A stretch of DNA of 37,630 nucleotides from contig JABDOZ010000015.1 in the NCBI GenBank assembly GCA_013043005.1, positions 1 through 37,630 of the forward strand. Direction: 5' to 3'. Position numbers and translations under genes: made by a program. This stretch comes from Flavobacteriaceae bacterium (GTDB lineage Bacteria; Bacteroidota; Bacteroidia; Flavobacteriales; Flavobacteriaceae). Below, piece after piece: positions 28,300 through 34,655 of the stretch; position 1 is the first letter of the stretch; every line of letters starts with the position of its first letter. The notes under the pieces were generated by a model. That model saw only the letters and a list, made by a program, of their open reading frames with translations. It was not told the DNA's origin and did not search any database.

Positions 28300-30174
28300 T
28301 CAAACTAGCCTTGAAAATCGTGCGTTTGACTGAGGGAAATCTACTCCCATTGCAAAAGTTGTGAACAGTCCACCTATAATAGCGGATATCAAAGTCATCC
28401 AGCCTAAAGTAGATGCTACGACTACAACATTAACATTAATTAAGGTCATAATGATACCAAGAAGAACTGATAAGATTGCTGTCCACTGATATAACCTAAG
28501 ACCCCTGAAGATGGGTGTTTGCACCTCACCTCTGTAGGCCTCTTCAACAAAACGGCCAATGCCGGTAAGTATCAAATAAAGACCAAAAATAAAAGAAGGT
28601 GAAAAATCATGTTGCCAAAGAAATAATAAAACGAAGCCTACCAAAAATAGCCATATCATCGCATAGAGTGGTGTTGGGTGCAACAGTTCGCCTTTTAAAT
28701 GTGATATACCACAAACACGAGAACGATTATGAAAATATCGTATACCAATATCTGGATGGTCAACTTTGCTACCATGGCAACAACCGTTTACTAAACAACG
28801 AAAACGGCCAATGCCTTGTACCCAAGGCATCACCACTGATATGACTCCTATAATAACCCATACATTGAATCCCATAATCCATACTGCAAGGCTGGCAAAA
28901 ATAATACCTACTAAAGCGCCATAATAACCAAAGGGTCTTTTTAATTTTTCAGATCCTTCAATGACTTGTGCCCAAAGTGCAGAAAAAATAACAACTACAA
29001 AAGCAAACATGAGTATGGCCCAGGCATAAGCGTCGCCTACCAATATTCCAGCAAGTAAAATACCAAGAAAGCTACCAAAACCTACATAGAAGCCGTGATT
29101 GATGACCCTTACTTTGCCAAATACCCATTCTTTCCATGAATTAGCAATTTTTTCGGATGCATTTTTTAAAGATAGCCAGATATAAAAATAATAGTCTGCG
29201 AGCAGGAAGATTATAATAGAACTGATTAAATGTAGTTCTGCCGAATTACTGAAAGCTAATTGTATTATCATAAGTGAGACACCTATCAAACTAAATAGTA
29301 TACCTAGCCCTTTTGAATGCTTGAAAATAGATCTTATGGATAGTAATACCAAAAAAATGGGAACCATATAGACAAAAGCATCCTTACCAGCAAGATATTG
29401 CGCCCCTACCGCAGGACATAGTAATGCAATAAAAGTGGAAATACCTATAGCAATCAGGCTGGTAATTACCCAATTGAAAATGTGATCCATTCTTTTGATG
29501 ATAAAAGGTATAGCCAATATAAATAGTACTGTCAATAAAAGTAAATATGGATTTTTGACAGGGAATTGTAAAACCAATGGTTTCCCTAAAAGAGCCGCTG
29601 TACTTCCAACCAATTTCACAATAATTAAATTACTTAATAACAACGAAGCAATCACCCAAAACAAAGAAATGAGTCTCGCCCTAATGCTAGCAGGTTCTTC
29701 TATTTTTGTCGGTAAATCCAAAATGGTTTTAATTGATTCATTTGGGAATCTTTTTTTTAGATCGATATCTTCATAACCCATCACAAGTGCGATCATCGCA
29801 AGGATAGCTATGGGTGTTACCAACCAAAGTCCACTGGATGAATTAGTGATTATAAAATATCCTATTAAAATTATACTAAATCCCCAGTATATGGGATGTC
29901 TAAAAATTTTGTAGGGACCTTTGGTTACAAATCTTGGAGGTGGATAGGCATTCATAGGTAATCCTTTGCCATATTTTTTTAAAGAGAACATGGCCCAAGC
30001 CATCAATATAACTCCGCCAATAACTAGCAACCAACCAATTAAAGTCGATTGGATTAATGGCAGATTGATAAGGTCTTCTGTATGGGTTGCCCAGAACCAT
30101 AGAAACAGAGGGATAATAACCAGAAAGACTATTGAATAGATAGTTTTATTGATTTGAGTTGGTAATTTATTCAT
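28300..30174 (-). CDS. multi-TM fusion: N-terminal ICMT-like methyltransferase + central TM region + C-terminal Lgt-like domain
   Basis: N-term RFVTKGPYKIFRHPIYWGFSIILIG...GYEDIDLKKRFPN (ICMT); C-term GIGRFRCLVNGCCHG...HPTPLYAM...LTGIGRFVEEAYRGE...LRLYQW (Lgt-type). Confidence 0.8.
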   Translation of the reverse strand: MNKLPTQINKTIYSIVFLVIIPLFLWFWATHTEDLINLPLIQSTLIGWLLVIGGVILMAWAMFSLKKYGKGLPMNAYPPPRFVTKGPYKIFRHPIYWGFSIILIGYFIITNSSSGLWLVTPIAILAMIALVMGYEDIDLKKRFPNESIKTILDLPTKIEEPASIRARLISLFWVIASLLLSNLIIVKLVGSTAALLGKPLVLQFPVKNPYLLLLTVLFILAIPFIIKRMDHIFNWVITSLIAIGISTFIALLCPAVGAQYLAGKDAFVYMVPIFLVLLSIRSIFKHSKGLGILFSLIGVSLMIIQLAFSNSAELHLISSIIIFLLADYYFYIWLSLKNASEKIANSWKEWVFGKVRVINHGFYVGFGSFLGILLAGILVGDAYAWAILMFAFVVVIFSALWAQVIEGSEKLKRPFGYYGALVGIIFASLAVWIMGFNVWVIIGVISVVMPWVQGIGRFRCLVNGCCHGSKVDHPDIGIRYFHNRSRVCGISHLKGELLHPTPLYAMIWLFLVGFVLLFLWQHDFSPSFIFGLYLILTGIGRFVEEAYRGEVQTPIFRGLRLYQWTAILSVLLGIIMTLINVNVVVVASTLGWMTLISAIIGGLFTTFAMGVDFPQSNARFSRLV

Positions 30175-30932
30175 TTCGTTCGCATTTTATTGAAAAAGAT
30201 GAGCATTGAAAATATAAAAAAAATTGATCCGTACATTATACCATAAACTGTGGCCGAGGCAGAAGAATAATCTGTTATTGCTGTAATAATAGCGGTTTGG
30301 GATGGGAAATATGCAGGGAGGAATTTTATGATGATCTGGTTTTGTGCCTCAGCATAAAAAAGTGGATTCTGTAGCCAACCTACATCAATATTTACGAGTA
30401 GTACGATCATTAAAATACCTTCTAATTCCCCTTTTATCAAGCTGCCAATGGCCAGTCCATAACTTCCATATACGAAACCTATTAACACTAAGCCGAAAAT
30501 AAAACTGCCAAGGTGATCGATGGTGTAAAAGGCATTAGTAAGTAAGCCTACATATACTGCGATCAATATTATCATCAATAGCAGCGCCAACAAAATTGAA
30601 ATTAATAATTGTATTGGATGATACCCGCATATAATTAATCGTCGGTTTACTACACTATTTTTTTGAATAAGATTAAGTGCCAGAAATGAAACCAGAAACC
30701 CAGACGAGGCAACTGCAAAAAAAATGAAGGAAATACCCTTTTCTGTAATATTTATAAAAACATCATCACCAACAGAGGCTAGTTGAAAAGGAAGCATTCT
30801 ATTTGATGTAGTAAACTCCACGACTGACAAGAAAAATGCTGGGATGATCGCGATCAAAATAATCACGATCTTTTGACGAACAAGCATTCTCAAAATCATT
30901 GCTAATCCTGTTATGATCTTATTTGAAGTCAT
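30171..30932 (-). CDS. ABC-2-type transporter permease
   Basis: ~6 TM segments, 253 aa; start overlaps the stop of the upstream ATPase ORF and its own stop overlaps the downstream start (4-nt overlaps). Confidence 0.75.
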   Translation of the reverse strand: MTSNKIITGLAMILRMLVRQKIVIILIAIIPAFFLSVVEFTTSNRMLPFQLASVGDDVFINITEKGISFIFFAVASSGFLVSFLALNLIQKNSVVNRRLIICGYHPIQLLISILLALLLMIILIAVYVGLLTNAFYTIDHLGSFIFGLVLIGFVYGSYGLAIGSLIKGELEGILMIVLLVNIDVGWLQNPLFYAEAQNQIIIKFLPAYFPSQTAIITAITDYSSASATVYGIMYGSIFFIFSMLIFFNKMRTK

Positions 30933-31528
30933 ACTAAAATTCCATTTTCGAGTTCATAAATGCGATCAAACCTATTTTTTTCACTTAGCAAATGTGTTAC
31001 AATAAGAACAGCACAACCTTGCTTTCTAAGATGATTGGTATAATCCCAAAACCGCTGATAGGTATCCCAGTCAAATCCATTATAGGGTTCATCGAGTATC
31101 AACAGGTCGGGCTTATGAAGAAGCGAGATGGAGAGGTTGAGTTTTTGTTGTGTACCACCACTCAGATTAATAATTCTTTCTTGGTTGTATTTAGCAAAAT
31201 TGAAATGATCTAGCAATTCTGTTGATCGCAGTTTCGATGGTTCTTTACTTATACCATATGCTACGGAGAAGTAATTAAAATGCTCTTGAACCGTAAGATG
31301 TGGAAAGAGTAAAGCTCTTTGAGGGCAATAACCCAACTTGCCATTAATTTGAACGGTTCCGTTTTGAGCCCTTCGCACCCCAACAATTATCTCCATTAAA
31401 GTGGACTTACCAGAGCCATTTTCACCTACAATGCCGGTAACCGTGCCTGCCTCTAGTTGAAAAGAGATATCCGTCAACACTTTTTTTCTACCAAAGGACT
31501 TCACAATATGTTCTGATCTTAAAATCAT
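30929..31528 (-). CDS. ABC transporter ATP-binding protein
   Basis: Walker A GENGSGKST, signature LSGGTQQ, Walker B LLILDEPYNGFD, H-loop VTH. Confidence 0.95.
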   Translation of the reverse strand: MILRSEHIVKSFGRKKVLTDISFQLEAGTVTGIVGENGSGKSTLMEIIVGVRRAQNGTVQINGKLGYCPQRALLFPHLTVQEHFNYFSVAYGISKEPSKLRSTELLDHFNFAKYNQERIINLSGGTQQKLNLSISLLHKPDLLILDEPYNGFDWDTYQRFWDYTNHLRKQGCAVLIVTHLLSEKNRFDRIYELENGILV

Positions 31529-32364
31529 TGATCTTGCGAATTAAAATTTACCCATTCATGAATGGCCATAACTTGCCTTTTAGTATGCCCTTTTTTTTGA
31601 AATTCGCCTTTACTTAACCATTTATAATTGGTAGCCATTAAAAATTTTGCAGGCATCAATTGTTTGAATCCAGGAAGGTAACTCAAAAGTTTCTCAACCA
31701 CCTTAAATATTTTTTTTTCAGATTCTAATACTATTCCTCGATCGAGGTTCAAAACGAAATTCTTATCTTCTGATACAATGTGATCATCTTCTATTATGGG
31801 ATTTAATATCCTTTCGTTATTAAGCCATAACCATTGCTGTTTGTTTTGTTCTCGCAATTCAATCCAAACCATGGTATCATGAAGTGAATGGAATCTTCCC
31901 CAGCGCAGATCATTCATTGGGATATGCCATGGAGGAGTAGTGAGAATCAGTTGCTCGACATAACCCAGTCCTTTTATGATCTTTTCGTTTATTTTTAATT
32001 CCACATTGGAAGCAGGTTGAAAACAGTTCCAGTCGAGATAACCATCATCAGAATCGAATATCCGAGCTTTAAGAGGCTTAGTTATAGAATGCCAGCTACC
32101 TGATATTTTAAATTTTTCATCATGCCAGGTAATCAAATTGTCATTCTTTTCTGGGAGTTTCACATTTCGAAAATGTGATCTAGTTCTAAGCCCACTTTCG
32201 TCGTGTTTTATCCAGCTTGCATAATTAACCACAATACCTTTAAAAGATAATTTTGCTGCATAAAAGATCATCGCTTCTCCACTTTTGCTTAGAAAGTCAA
32301 GAAACCATTTGTTGAGTAAAAAAACTCCTTGTTTTGTATTCGTTTTTTTATCGTTATGATTCAT
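31525..32364 (-). CDS. lipocalin-like CrtC/AttH-superfamily protein (carotenoid 1,2-hydratase-like)
   Basis: WFLDFLSKSGEAMIFYAAKLSFKGIVVNYAS; PPWHIPMNDLRWGRFHSLHDTMVWIELREQNKQQWLWLNNERI. Confidence 0.6.
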   Translation of the reverse strand: MNHNDKKTNTKQGVFLLNKWFLDFLSKSGEAMIFYAAKLSFKGIVVNYASWIKHDESGLRTRSHFRNVKLPEKNDNLITWHDEKFKISGSWHSITKPLKARIFDSDDGYLDWNCFQPASNVELKINEKIIKGLGYVEQLILTTPPWHIPMNDLRWGRFHSLHDTMVWIELREQNKQQWLWLNNERILNPIIEDDHIVSEDKNFVLNLDRGIVLESEKKIFKVVEKLLSYLPGFKQLMPAKFLMATNYKWLSKGEFQKKGHTKRQVMAIHEWVNFNSQDQ

Positions 32365-32376
32365 TTTTTATTCGAA

Positions 32377-33570
32377 TCAAAAATTATATTCAATTTCAGA
32401 TTTTTCTATTTTACTTTTACTTATTAGTATTTGATTTGGTAATTTTTTCCCGGGAAATCCGGAAGCCATTACAATCCCATATGCCCCTACATTTTTCACT
32501 ATTAGAAATTCGCCTTCCTTAACTTCCTCTAATTTTCTATCTCGCCCTAAAAAATCGTTTTGTAGAACCGTGTTTCCCCTTATATCATATACTTTTTTTG
32601 GCTTCCCTGATTTTTCCAAATTATCAATTATATGATAAGAATTATAAACCCTGGGTCTTGCGAATTCTGCAAAACCGGCATTAACTGAAATTTCAGATTT
32701 TTTAGGAGAAAGTTTTTTAATATTTGTAACCTTAACCAACAATATTCCGGCATCAGCCAATAAAGTCCTACCTGGCTCTATTTTTAAAATTATTGCTCTT
32801 TGGAAACTCCTACTCAATTTGTTACATAATGAGGAATAATGTTTCAATACTTTTTTAAAATTAAAATCTTTATCTTTTTCTTTACACCTAACCCCAAAAC
32901 CACTTCCAAAATTAACATACTCCAAATCGGGAAAATTATTAGCGATCTTAAATAGAAAGTTGCCAAACTCAATAAAGGGTTTTTCATCGAATACATTTGA
33001 AGCAAAATAGCCATGTACACCTATAGTTTTGTTGCCTGTTTTTTCTGCGATATCTGTAATTTTACTAAAATCTTTTTCCTCAATTCCTACATTAGAATGT
33101 GAGTAAATGTTAGTAGCTTCATCTGAAATTATTTTTATCCTTTTAGGAATTCTTACTCTTATACCAAAAGTTTTGTTTTTATTTAGAGCACAGTACTTTT
33201 CTACCTCTTCGACAGAATCAAAGTTTATCTCTATATTTTCTTTCGAAAGTTTTTTCATTAACTCCATACTAATTCCTGTAGAACTGAAACTAATATCTGA
33301 AATATTAAACCCTGCTTCCTTCACTAAATCTAATTCGTTTTCTGAATTTACTTGAACGCCTATACCCAAATTCTTAATTGTTTTTAAAATTTCAGGTTGG
33401 TTATTGCACATCACTGCAAAAAAAACTTTACTATTTTGATAAGTTAAAAATTTTAGAATAGCGGATAGATTATCCTTGATTCGTTCAGTATCATAAATAT
33501 AAAGTGGTGTTCCATATTGCTCTGCAATATTTTTATAATTATGTGGAACATTTAAATTATTTAAATTCAT
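32377..33570 (-). CDS. fold-type III PLP decarboxylase homologue (LysA/ODC-like) lacking the PLP lysine
   Basis: AEQYGTPLYIYDTERIKDN, VFFAVMCNNQPEIL (normally VKANxN), FGSGFG, IEPGRTLLADAGILL, GAYGIVMASGF. Confidence 0.85.
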   Translation of the reverse strand: MNLNNLNVPHNYKNIAEQYGTPLYIYDTERIKDNLSAILKFLTYQNSKVFFAVMCNNQPEILKTIKNLGIGVQVNSENELDLVKEAGFNISDISFSSTGISMELMKKLSKENIEINFDSVEEVEKYCALNKNKTFGIRVRIPKRIKIISDEATNIYSHSNVGIEEKDFSKITDIAEKTGNKTIGVHGYFASNVFDEKPFIEFGNFLFKIANNFPDLEYVNFGSGFGVRCKEKDKDFNFKKVLKHYSSLCNKLSRSFQRAIILKIEPGRTLLADAGILLVKVTNIKKLSPKKSEISVNAGFAEFARPRVYNSYHIIDNLEKSGKPKKVYDIRGNTVLQNDFLGRDRKLEEVKEGEFLIVKNVGAYGIVMASGFPGKKLPNQILISKSKIEKSEIEYNF

Positions 33571-33582
33571 ATTAGTATAAAA

Positions 33583-34449
33583 CTATTTTCTATTTGAATC
33601 CAAAATTTGATTTTGTGAAAGTACTCGTCGGAATACTTTTCTTGCAGGAATTTCATATACCACCAAGAAGGTCCATCTTGCCAATTGAGAAAAATTACCT
33701 TCATGTAATCCTCGATGATGTTCTTCAAGGAGTTTTATTCCATCTTTAGCACGTTGCCGTATCCATCTTTTTATTTTCGTTGAAGAAGGGTTATTAAGAT
33801 CTTCGTTTACAATATTAAATTGTGTACATTCTTCTTGAGAAATATTCACATATCCAGCAGCCAGATCAGTTTCAATGTCTTCAATGTCATATTGGTAACG
33901 ACAGGCCACCCCAAGTGGTTCCAATATCTTATACTTTTCAGGGTCATCTTTAAAAACCTTTAAAGTGGCTTTAATTGTTCCCCTGATATCCAGTAAATGG
34001 AAATGATGCATTAATTCCTTTTTCGGAAAAATGATTAATTTGCCCCGCCTTTTAGCATCGAAGAGCAAGGAGTTTAAAATATCTTCGGTTTCTGCTCGGA
34101 ATTCTTCTCCAAACTTTTTTGCGACTCCAAAACAATGGAGCATCAAATAATCTACTTCATCAATTGGATCGATAGGTTTTTTCGAGAATTCGATTTTTTT
34201 CAATAAATAATCTATTTCATTTGGATATCCTTCGGGTAATGGAGCATCCCCATCTACTATATCATCAAGAAAGCGCATTAAAACATAGTAGGATTCCAGG
34301 AATTCACCTCTTGTAGGTGCAAAAGCAGCATATTTGAAAAATCGCAGATATCGCAAAAAAACACGGTACTTCCAACTCCTAGTCTTGAGCATATGCTTAA
34401 ATACTCGATTACGAATTCTGACAGGGTTTTTTAAATCTCCAGTTTTCAA
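33583..34449 (-). CDS. squalene/phytoene synthase-like (trans-isoprenyl diphosphate synthase, head-to-head type)
   Basis: Asp-rich motif 1 YYVLMRFLDDIVDGD; motif 2 YQYDIEDIETDLAAGYVNISQEEC in the position of NILRDxxED..GRxYLP. Confidence 0.8.
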   Translation of the reverse strand: MKTGDLKNPVRIRNRVFKHMLKTRSWKYRVFLRYLRFFKYAAFAPTRGEFLESYYVLMRFLDDIVDGDAPLPEGYPNEIDYLLKKIEFSKKPIDPIDEVDYLMLHCFGVAKKFGEEFRAETEDILNSLLFDAKRRGKLIIFPKKELMHHFHLLDIRGTIKATLKVFKDDPEKYKILEPLGVACRYQYDIEDIETDLAAGYVNISQEECTQFNIVNEDLNNPSSTKIKRWIRQRAKDGIKLLEEHHRGLHEGNFSQLARWTFLVVYEIPARKVFRRVLSQNQILDSNRK

Positions 34450-34550
34450 AATAATTTTTTCAAAGAATTTATAGAACTGCTATCTATATAGATGTTCTTT
34501 TAACTGCCACAAATTTCAAGGATGTGAAAATGTTTTAAAGTTTAAAATCG

Positions 34551-34605
34551 AACATTAAACTAAGTTAGTCTTTTTTACTCATAAAATCAAGGATTTGGTC
34601 AATCA
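34551..34605 (-). promoter_or_regulatory. Upstream element copy 1 (TTAAACTAAGTTAGT...TCAAGG)
   Basis: About 30/42 ungapped identity by eye to 36170-36223; 102-156 bp upstream of the isoprenoid operon. Confidence 0.5.
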
Positions 34606-34655
34606 CAAACAAAGTGTCAGACGCCATTTTTTGGACCTTTTTTTTAATAATTACA

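Follow-up and report, generated by a model that had tools for sequence, protein, structure and literature searches.

A six-gene operon of a Flavobacteriaceae bacterium built on a conserved lipocalin and ICMT-PAP2-Lgt gene pair: a candidate module for lipid biosynthesis and export

Results

Gene content and layout of the locus

We analyzed a stretch of 37,630 nucleotides (positions 1 to 37,630 of contig JABDOZ010000015.1, assembly GCA_013043005.1; hereafter the window) from a marine, Maribacter-like Flavobacteriaceae bacterium, and focused on six consecutive open reading frames on its minus strand. In the order of transcription, these encode an SQS-like isoprenoid synthase, a protein with a pyridoxal phosphate (PLP) barrel, a lipocalin-like protein, the two components of an ABC exporter, and a membrane protein that fuses methyltransferase, PAP2-derived and Lgt-like domains (Table 1). 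The junctions consist of two gaps of 12 nt each, followed by three overlaps of 4 nt each, and by this spacing the six adjacent genes are predicted to form one operon. An earlier reading of this DNA (hereafter the sequence-only reading) had described the same reading frames, gaps and overlaps, which proved exact when we rechecked the coordinates. A sigma-70 promoter scan of the intergenic region upstream of the first gene and a terminator scan both remained at chance level. The assembly of the window comprises 2.2 Mb in 181 contigs and is 73.5% complete.

Table 1. Features of the operon and its upstream region in the window
Feature	Positions	Strand	Basis
Intergenic region, presumed promoter	34450..34655	-	206 bp, from DASS symporter gene to SQS-like gene
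SQS-like isoprenoid synthase, 288 aa, TTG start	33583..34449	-	Asp motifs, AlphaFold2 (AF2) fold, weak Pfam match
PLP-barrel (diaminopimelate decarboxylase fold) pseudoenzyme, 397 aa	32377..33570	-	Profile, residue losses, GC content
CrtC/AttH/Diels-Alderase-superfamily lipocalin-like protein, 279 aa, no Pfam family	31525..32364	-	AF2, Foldseek
ABC transporter ATP-binding protein, 199 aa	30929..31528	-	ABC_tran, 102.7 bits, 3e-29
ABC-2 type membrane protein, 253 aa	30171..30932	-	ABC2_membrane_3, 18.3 bits, weak, below cut-off
Triple-fusion membrane protein, 624 aa: PEMT/ICMT-type methyltransferase (residues ~45-131), degenerate PAP2-derived middle (~160-340), Lgt-like domain (~340-624)	28300..30174	-	Pfam, motif table, hhalign

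A two-gene core is conserved across bacterial phyla

A profile scan of 85,488 GTDB species genomes with the fusion protein returned 80 loci. A lipocalin gene was found upstream of the ICMT-Lgt gene in 50 of the 53 loci that offered at least 3.5 kb of upstream flank, and these loci belong to Bacteroidota, Acidobacteriota, Ignavibacteriota, Pseudomonadota, and other phyla. The two-gene core, formed by the lipocalin and the ICMT-(PAP2)-Lgt protein, spans at least eight bacterial phyla. Moreover, sequence distances of the two proteins were strongly correlated (Mantel r 0.87; permutations at most 0.11). Conserved gene order together with this correlation rules out that the six genes are adjacent by chance, and the genetic linkage of the module is well supported. 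The sequence-only reading had suggested looking for at least four of the six genes together in diverged genomes, and such neighbourhoods were indeed recovered.

The remaining genes are distributed differently. The SQS-like gene was present at 17 loci and the ABC ATPase gene at 27, the ABC membrane gene adjoined ICMT-Lgt at 28, and a PLP-barrel gene and a directly downstream sulfotransferase-family gene were each present at five; apart from the prenyltransferase-family genes described below, other neighbours were unrelated genes. The SQS-like synthase and the ABC pair are additions within one clade, mostly of Bacteroidota, some members of which also carry the sulfotransferase or the PLP barrel. 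When mapped onto the ICMT-Lgt tree, presence of the SQS-like gene required one change, compared to 16.2 after shuffling. The core is therefore the lipocalin plus ICMT-(PAP2)-Lgt, to which SQS and ABC genes were added later within a clade, and the six genes are not of equal age. The earlier proposal that all six form one system stands with regard to conserved linkage, but has to be narrowed to a two-gene core with younger partners.

A further cluster was identified outside the 80 loci in genome G579 (L026; contig C1, 6417-12860). It comprises genes for a lipocalin, a cytochrome P450, ICMT-Lgt, the ABC ATPase, the ABC membrane protein and a PLP barrel. Five of the six families are thus retained, and the P450 takes the place of SQS; sequence identity of the lipocalin, the fusion protein and the PLP barrel is only ~22-25%. 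The locus nearest to the window stems from a metagenome-assembled genome, Maribacter sp. SS_bin_62, with an ICMT-Lgt protein 98% identical to that of the window. This bin (JABDKZ) holds three distinct ICMT-Lgt copies (L030, L032 and L033; 98%, 76% and 76% identical to the window protein), which means that the bin is mixed or that one organism has several operons.

Of 399 phylum genomes searched, eight contain the lipocalin with strong support. Both the SQS-like family (strong support) and the PLP-barrel family were restricted to two genomes each, in all cases within these eight carriers; for SQS, the chance of such a coincidence is 28/79401 or ~4e-4, calculated by hand with relatedness ignored. 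At the sensitivity used, the SQS-like protein was absent from all of 248 genomes of the window's order except its own, and it is present in named Flavobacteriaceae beyond this sample, e.g., Christiangramia and Mangrovimonas. A search of viral contigs and plasmids for the lipocalin gave no match. The module occurs rarely and patchily and over a wide range, a distribution expected of a trait that moves horizontally.

Several neighbourhoods contained additional genes. Sulfotransfer_3 genes directly follow ICMT-Lgt (three of the five tested with Pfam, one fused to an adenylylsulfate (APS) kinase); the sulfotransferase-adenylylsulfate kinase fusion lies directly behind the module at L041:11890-13509. 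A prenyltransferase-family gene directly precedes the lipocalin in three Acidobacteriota loci, and the one tested was UbiA-like. At one UbiA-linked locus, L083 (Acidoferrales), the fusion protein has lost both PAP2 histidines, and two close UbiA-linked relatives keep them. In Neisseria wadsworthii and Neisseria sp. 83E34 (L082 and L087), the pair lies behind a NarX/NarL-like two-component pair; the same two genomes contain two SQS_PSY genes elsewhere, which is unexpected for Neisseria. Related radical SAM proteins are encoded within a few genes of L039, L041, L047, L049, L050 and L053, with a SPASM domain in those scanned with Pfam. As they mostly lie on the opposite strand, we left them out of the module.

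The fusion protein combines three domains

Pfam assigned the fusion protein to LGT (81.5 bits; cut-off 24.9), PEMT (43.7 bits) and ICMT (26.9 bits), all above cut-off, and a sequence search of the PDB with this protein returned nothing meaningful. The HP-x-Y motif of the methyltransferase is present, with P94 and Y96 invariant and H93 conserved to at least 90% in the alignment of fusion proteins. The middle region is recognizable only in relatives, with PAP2_3 (PF14378) detected in eight of 27 from many phyla. The fusion of ICMT and Lgt domains described in the sequence-only reading was thus confirmed for both domains, but the protein is triple, with a PAP2-derived domain between them. A tree of 79 fusion proteins split into two groups with 100% support, one of 42 proteins, usually accompanied by the lipocalin gene alone, and one of 37 including that of the window. 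In aligned motif columns, PSxH (or PAxH) and HxxxD, the motifs of PAP2_3 phosphatases and phosphotransferases, are kept in 39/42 proteins of the former and in 0/37 of the latter. Unlike PAP2_3 enzymes, the fusion protein of the window has lost both.

The Lgt-like domain aligned with true Lgt by hhalign (E 9e-9). R457 and R541, corresponding to R143 and R239 of Lgt, are invariant in 27 fusion sequences, and compared to the true Lgts of relatives, the equivalents of R143, R239, E243, R246, G142 and G154 are kept. Substitutions comprise His103 to Tyr in the HGG motif, Gly145 to Arg, Asn146 to Cys, and Glu151 to Cys. The domain therefore resembles the Lgt of E. coli and Bacteroidota (PF01790) in its Pfam match and its phospholipid-binding arginines, but sits behind the methyltransferase and PAP2-derived domains, and relatives also possess a separate true Lgt. 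Transfer to a lipobox cysteine found no support, because H103 and N146, which E. coli Lgt requires (PMC4728403, PMC13251419), are both replaced.

The lipocalin-like protein shares the fold of the CrtC group

The lipocalin-like protein matched no family in a Pfam scan, a PDB sequence search with it yielded nothing meaningful, and the CrtC-type Pfam families PF07143, PF09410 and PF24137 were matched by 0/65 members of its family. Its AF2 model, built from relatives, reached a predicted local distance difference test (pLDDT) score of 92. Foldseek retrieved 28 PDB matches at E < 0.001, the top 27 of which all belong to the CrtC/AttH/Diels-Alderase group, which indicates a calycin-type fold. Matches included Fsa2 (2e-9), 25-phosphosteroid lyase (1e-8), kievitone hydratase (3e-8) and AttH (4e-8), as well as the Diels-Alderases Phm7 and CghA. 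The protein thus shares the fold of CrtC, AttH NE1406, kievitone hydratase, 25-phosphosteroid lyase and Fsa2, but is shorter, lacks a sequence match to their Pfam families, and reaches a template modelling (TM) score of only ~0.55. The AttH protein NE1406 was connected by its authors to isoprenoid metabolism and to CrtC (PF07143) (PMC2954199). CrtC-like proteins of 356-362 aa encoded near glycosyltransferases (L024, L025 and L027-L029) were not counted with the family, because they form a different group whose relation to it is weak (E 1e-3 to 1e-10).

The SQS-like protein is a likely isoprenoid synthase

The SQS-like protein scored below the Pfam cut-off for SQS_PSY (PF00494; 17.1 versus 26 bits), and ten of 17 family members matched PF00494 at E < 0.01 (best 1e-7). 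A PDB search with the SQS profile gave weak matches (best E 0.002). The AF2 model (pLDDT 87; built from relatives) matched HpnC best (4hd1; E 1.4e-4, TM 0.62-0.67), followed by CrtM and human SQS, and the protein was assigned to the class I all-alpha isoprenoid synthase fold. Since both Asp-rich motifs (D62-D63-x-x-D66 and D188-x2-D191-x3-D195) are invariant in 18 aligned sequences, it is likely an active synthase. Fold and motifs are shared with HpnC, CrtM and squalene synthase; in contrast to these, the family forms a separate clade below the Pfam cut-off, is confined to module carriers in the genome samples searched, and its gene has no hpnD, hpnE or crt partners. Concerning the start of the gene (34447-34455), the apparent ATG start of relative L031 aligns with ATT in the window (34455-34453), and the listed TTG lies two codons further on.

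The PLP-barrel protein is a sporadic addition

The PLP-barrel protein contains the N- and C-terminal domains of the Orn/DAP group of fold-III PLP decarboxylases (90.7 and 57 bits, both above cut-off), and its profile matched diaminopimelate decarboxylases best among solved structures (DapDC 2p3e, E 6e-56). Despite this likeness to LysA, the position of the Schiff-base lysine is occupied by Met (FAVMCNN in the window) and the Cys-Glu pair of diaminopimelate decarboxylase is replaced by Leu-Gln; as both losses were found in all six aligned proteins, they represent a trait of the subfamily, not a local mutation. The label pseudoenzyme, already used in the sequence-only reading, is thus justified. 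A possible functional parallel is the antizyme inhibitor, another decarboxylase-fold protein without the decarboxylase residues. The homologue in G332, the second carrier among the phylum genomes, is distant from the lipocalin/fusion pair and again has Met, and the G579 protein retains its lysine. With 29.1% GC and 20.9% GC at third codon positions, the gene has the lowest values of the six operon genes. It lies between SQS and lipocalin in the window, ahead of the lipocalin in L043 and L044, and behind the fusion gene in L055, L065 and L073. This varied placement indicates that it joined the module more than once, as a sporadic addition of lower GC content.

Discussion

We tentatively favour, at a little short of even confidence, a module for lipid biosynthesis and export whose product would be an unusual, partly isoprenoid membrane lipid. 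That the substrate is an isoprenoid is plausible by analogy, suggested by the SQS fold, the UbiA neighbours and the CrtC-type fold; the kept Lgt residues point to a lipid-joining reaction, and the Sulfotransfer_3 genes directly after ICMT-Lgt to a product with a hydroxyl group. We infer the following chemistry and order of steps. The SQS-like enzyme, judged by its fold and Asp motifs, would condense or ionize prenyl diphosphates and free pyrophosphate, yielding a hydrocarbon-like isoprenoid. The lipocalin-like enzyme would then hydrate, cyclize or isomerize this polyene, as its fold suggests by comparison with CrtC, kievitone hydratase and the lipocalin Diels-Alderases, and a hydroxyl introduced here could serve the downstream sulfotransferases of some relatives. 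Transport by the ABC-2 exporter may then place the product in the outer leaflet of the inner membrane. Finally, the fusion protein might methylate it, and the Lgt-like domain might join a diacylglyceryl or similar group to it. The acceptor would be non-peptide; the arginines for the phosphatidylglycerol headgroup are kept, and the His103/Asn146 set is lost. The PLP barrel may act as an optional, PLP-independent accessory, as a binding or scaffold protein. For the other clade, with PAP2 intact and no SQS, the phosphatase may dephosphorylate a prenyl phosphate, a step that would be needless where SQS releases pyrophosphate.

Several observations weigh against this proposal. Its main weakness is that most genomes with the core pair lack the synthase: the SQS family is missing from 29/38 carriers searched, in which the pair may have a different lipid as its substrate, and 6/33 carriers, including Chitinophaga hostae, have no PF00494 match at all, which means that the pair can work without SQS. 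PAP2 loss and gain of SQS and ABC genes fall on the same deep branch and amount to about one event. The rule that a prenyl synthase replaces the phosphatase is contradicted by two of the three UbiA-linked proteins, which keep the PAP2 motifs in aligned columns; a pairing of UbiA acquisition with PAP2 loss is weakened accordingly. Furthermore, H103 is not conserved in Firmicutes, whose Lgts have Tyr, and some other Lgts carry Tyr or Trp there; in distant Lgts, position 146 is Cys and position 151 is Cys or Asp, and a mycobacterial Lgt paralogue carries N146C (PMC13251419). Judged by these residues, a protein acceptor is therefore less likely yet possible. The earlier idea that the operon makes, exports and processes an isoprenoid lipid thus holds insofar as isoprenoid-type, CrtC-superfamily, exporter and ICMT-Lgt parts are conserved together, with the isoprenoid substrate itself reduced to a plausible suggestion.

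The same distribution supports the most serious alternative, namely that the core pair modifies an existing phospholipid or polyprenyl lipid by headgroup phosphotransfer, methylation and diacylglyceryl transfer, with SQS, ABC, PLP barrel and sulfotransferase as lineage accessories and isoprenoids not the main substrate. The pair stands alone in most loci and phyla, Chitinophaga hostae and similar genomes possess it without any PF00494 protein, and the PEMT, PAP2_3 and Lgt families each include members acting on phospholipids. We nevertheless regard this alternative as somewhat unlikely, as it leaves the strict association of SQS with the module in one clade and the UbiA neighbours unexplained, and the substrates of characterized CrtC-type folds are isoprenoids, prenylated compounds or polyketides. 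A dedicated protein lipidation system, in which the Lgt-like domain would place an isoprenoid-containing lipid on cysteine proteins and the ICMT part would methylate them in analogy to eukaryotic CAAX processing, appears improbable. The ICMT and Lgt families, the kept equivalents of R143, R239, E243 and R246, and a CAAX-protease-like (Rce1-like) gene upstream of the pair in L018 would agree with it. However, this neighbour occurs at one locus only, His103 and Asn146 are replaced, neither a substrate protein nor a signal peptidase gene travels with the module in the neighbourhoods examined, and a CrtC-type enzyme plus sulfotransferase suits a lipid product better.

Fold matches to HpnC, CrtM and CrtC-type proteins could also hint at a side branch of pigment or hopanoid synthesis leading to a variant carotenoid, squalene or hydroxysqualene derivative. 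A classical cluster of these kinds is ruled out by the absence of the partner genes from the operon, in agreement with the sequence-only reading; the operon lacks a desaturase, a cyclase, hpnD and shc. As several carriers (G605, G606, G609 and G626) have a separate canonical SQS/PSY elsewhere, and the fusion protein has no role in carotenoid, squalene or hopanoid pathways, we consider such a side branch very doubtful. In the open-access literature, our searches combining ICMT and Lgt, or squalene synthase and either lipocalin or sulfotransferase, returned nothing relevant, and the combination was not found there as a described pathway, as the sequence-only reading had supposed.

A bolder form of the lipid biosynthesis and export proposal, which we deem rather unlikely, is that the mobile module makes a bacterial membrane lipid of a class not described before, with an isoprenoid and a glycerolipid part, and that its Lgt-type enzyme lipidates a small lipid and not a protein. 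If the lipid biosynthesis and export proposal is right, marine and soil bacteria from many phyla would share a lipid pathway, Lgt-type chemistry would have been diverted from lipoproteins to another use, and an unannotated family of the CrtC superfamily would gain a functional handle. The gene set is ready for lipidomics in named strains of Christiangramia, Mangrovimonas, Algoriphagus, Carboxylicivirga and Chitinophaga.

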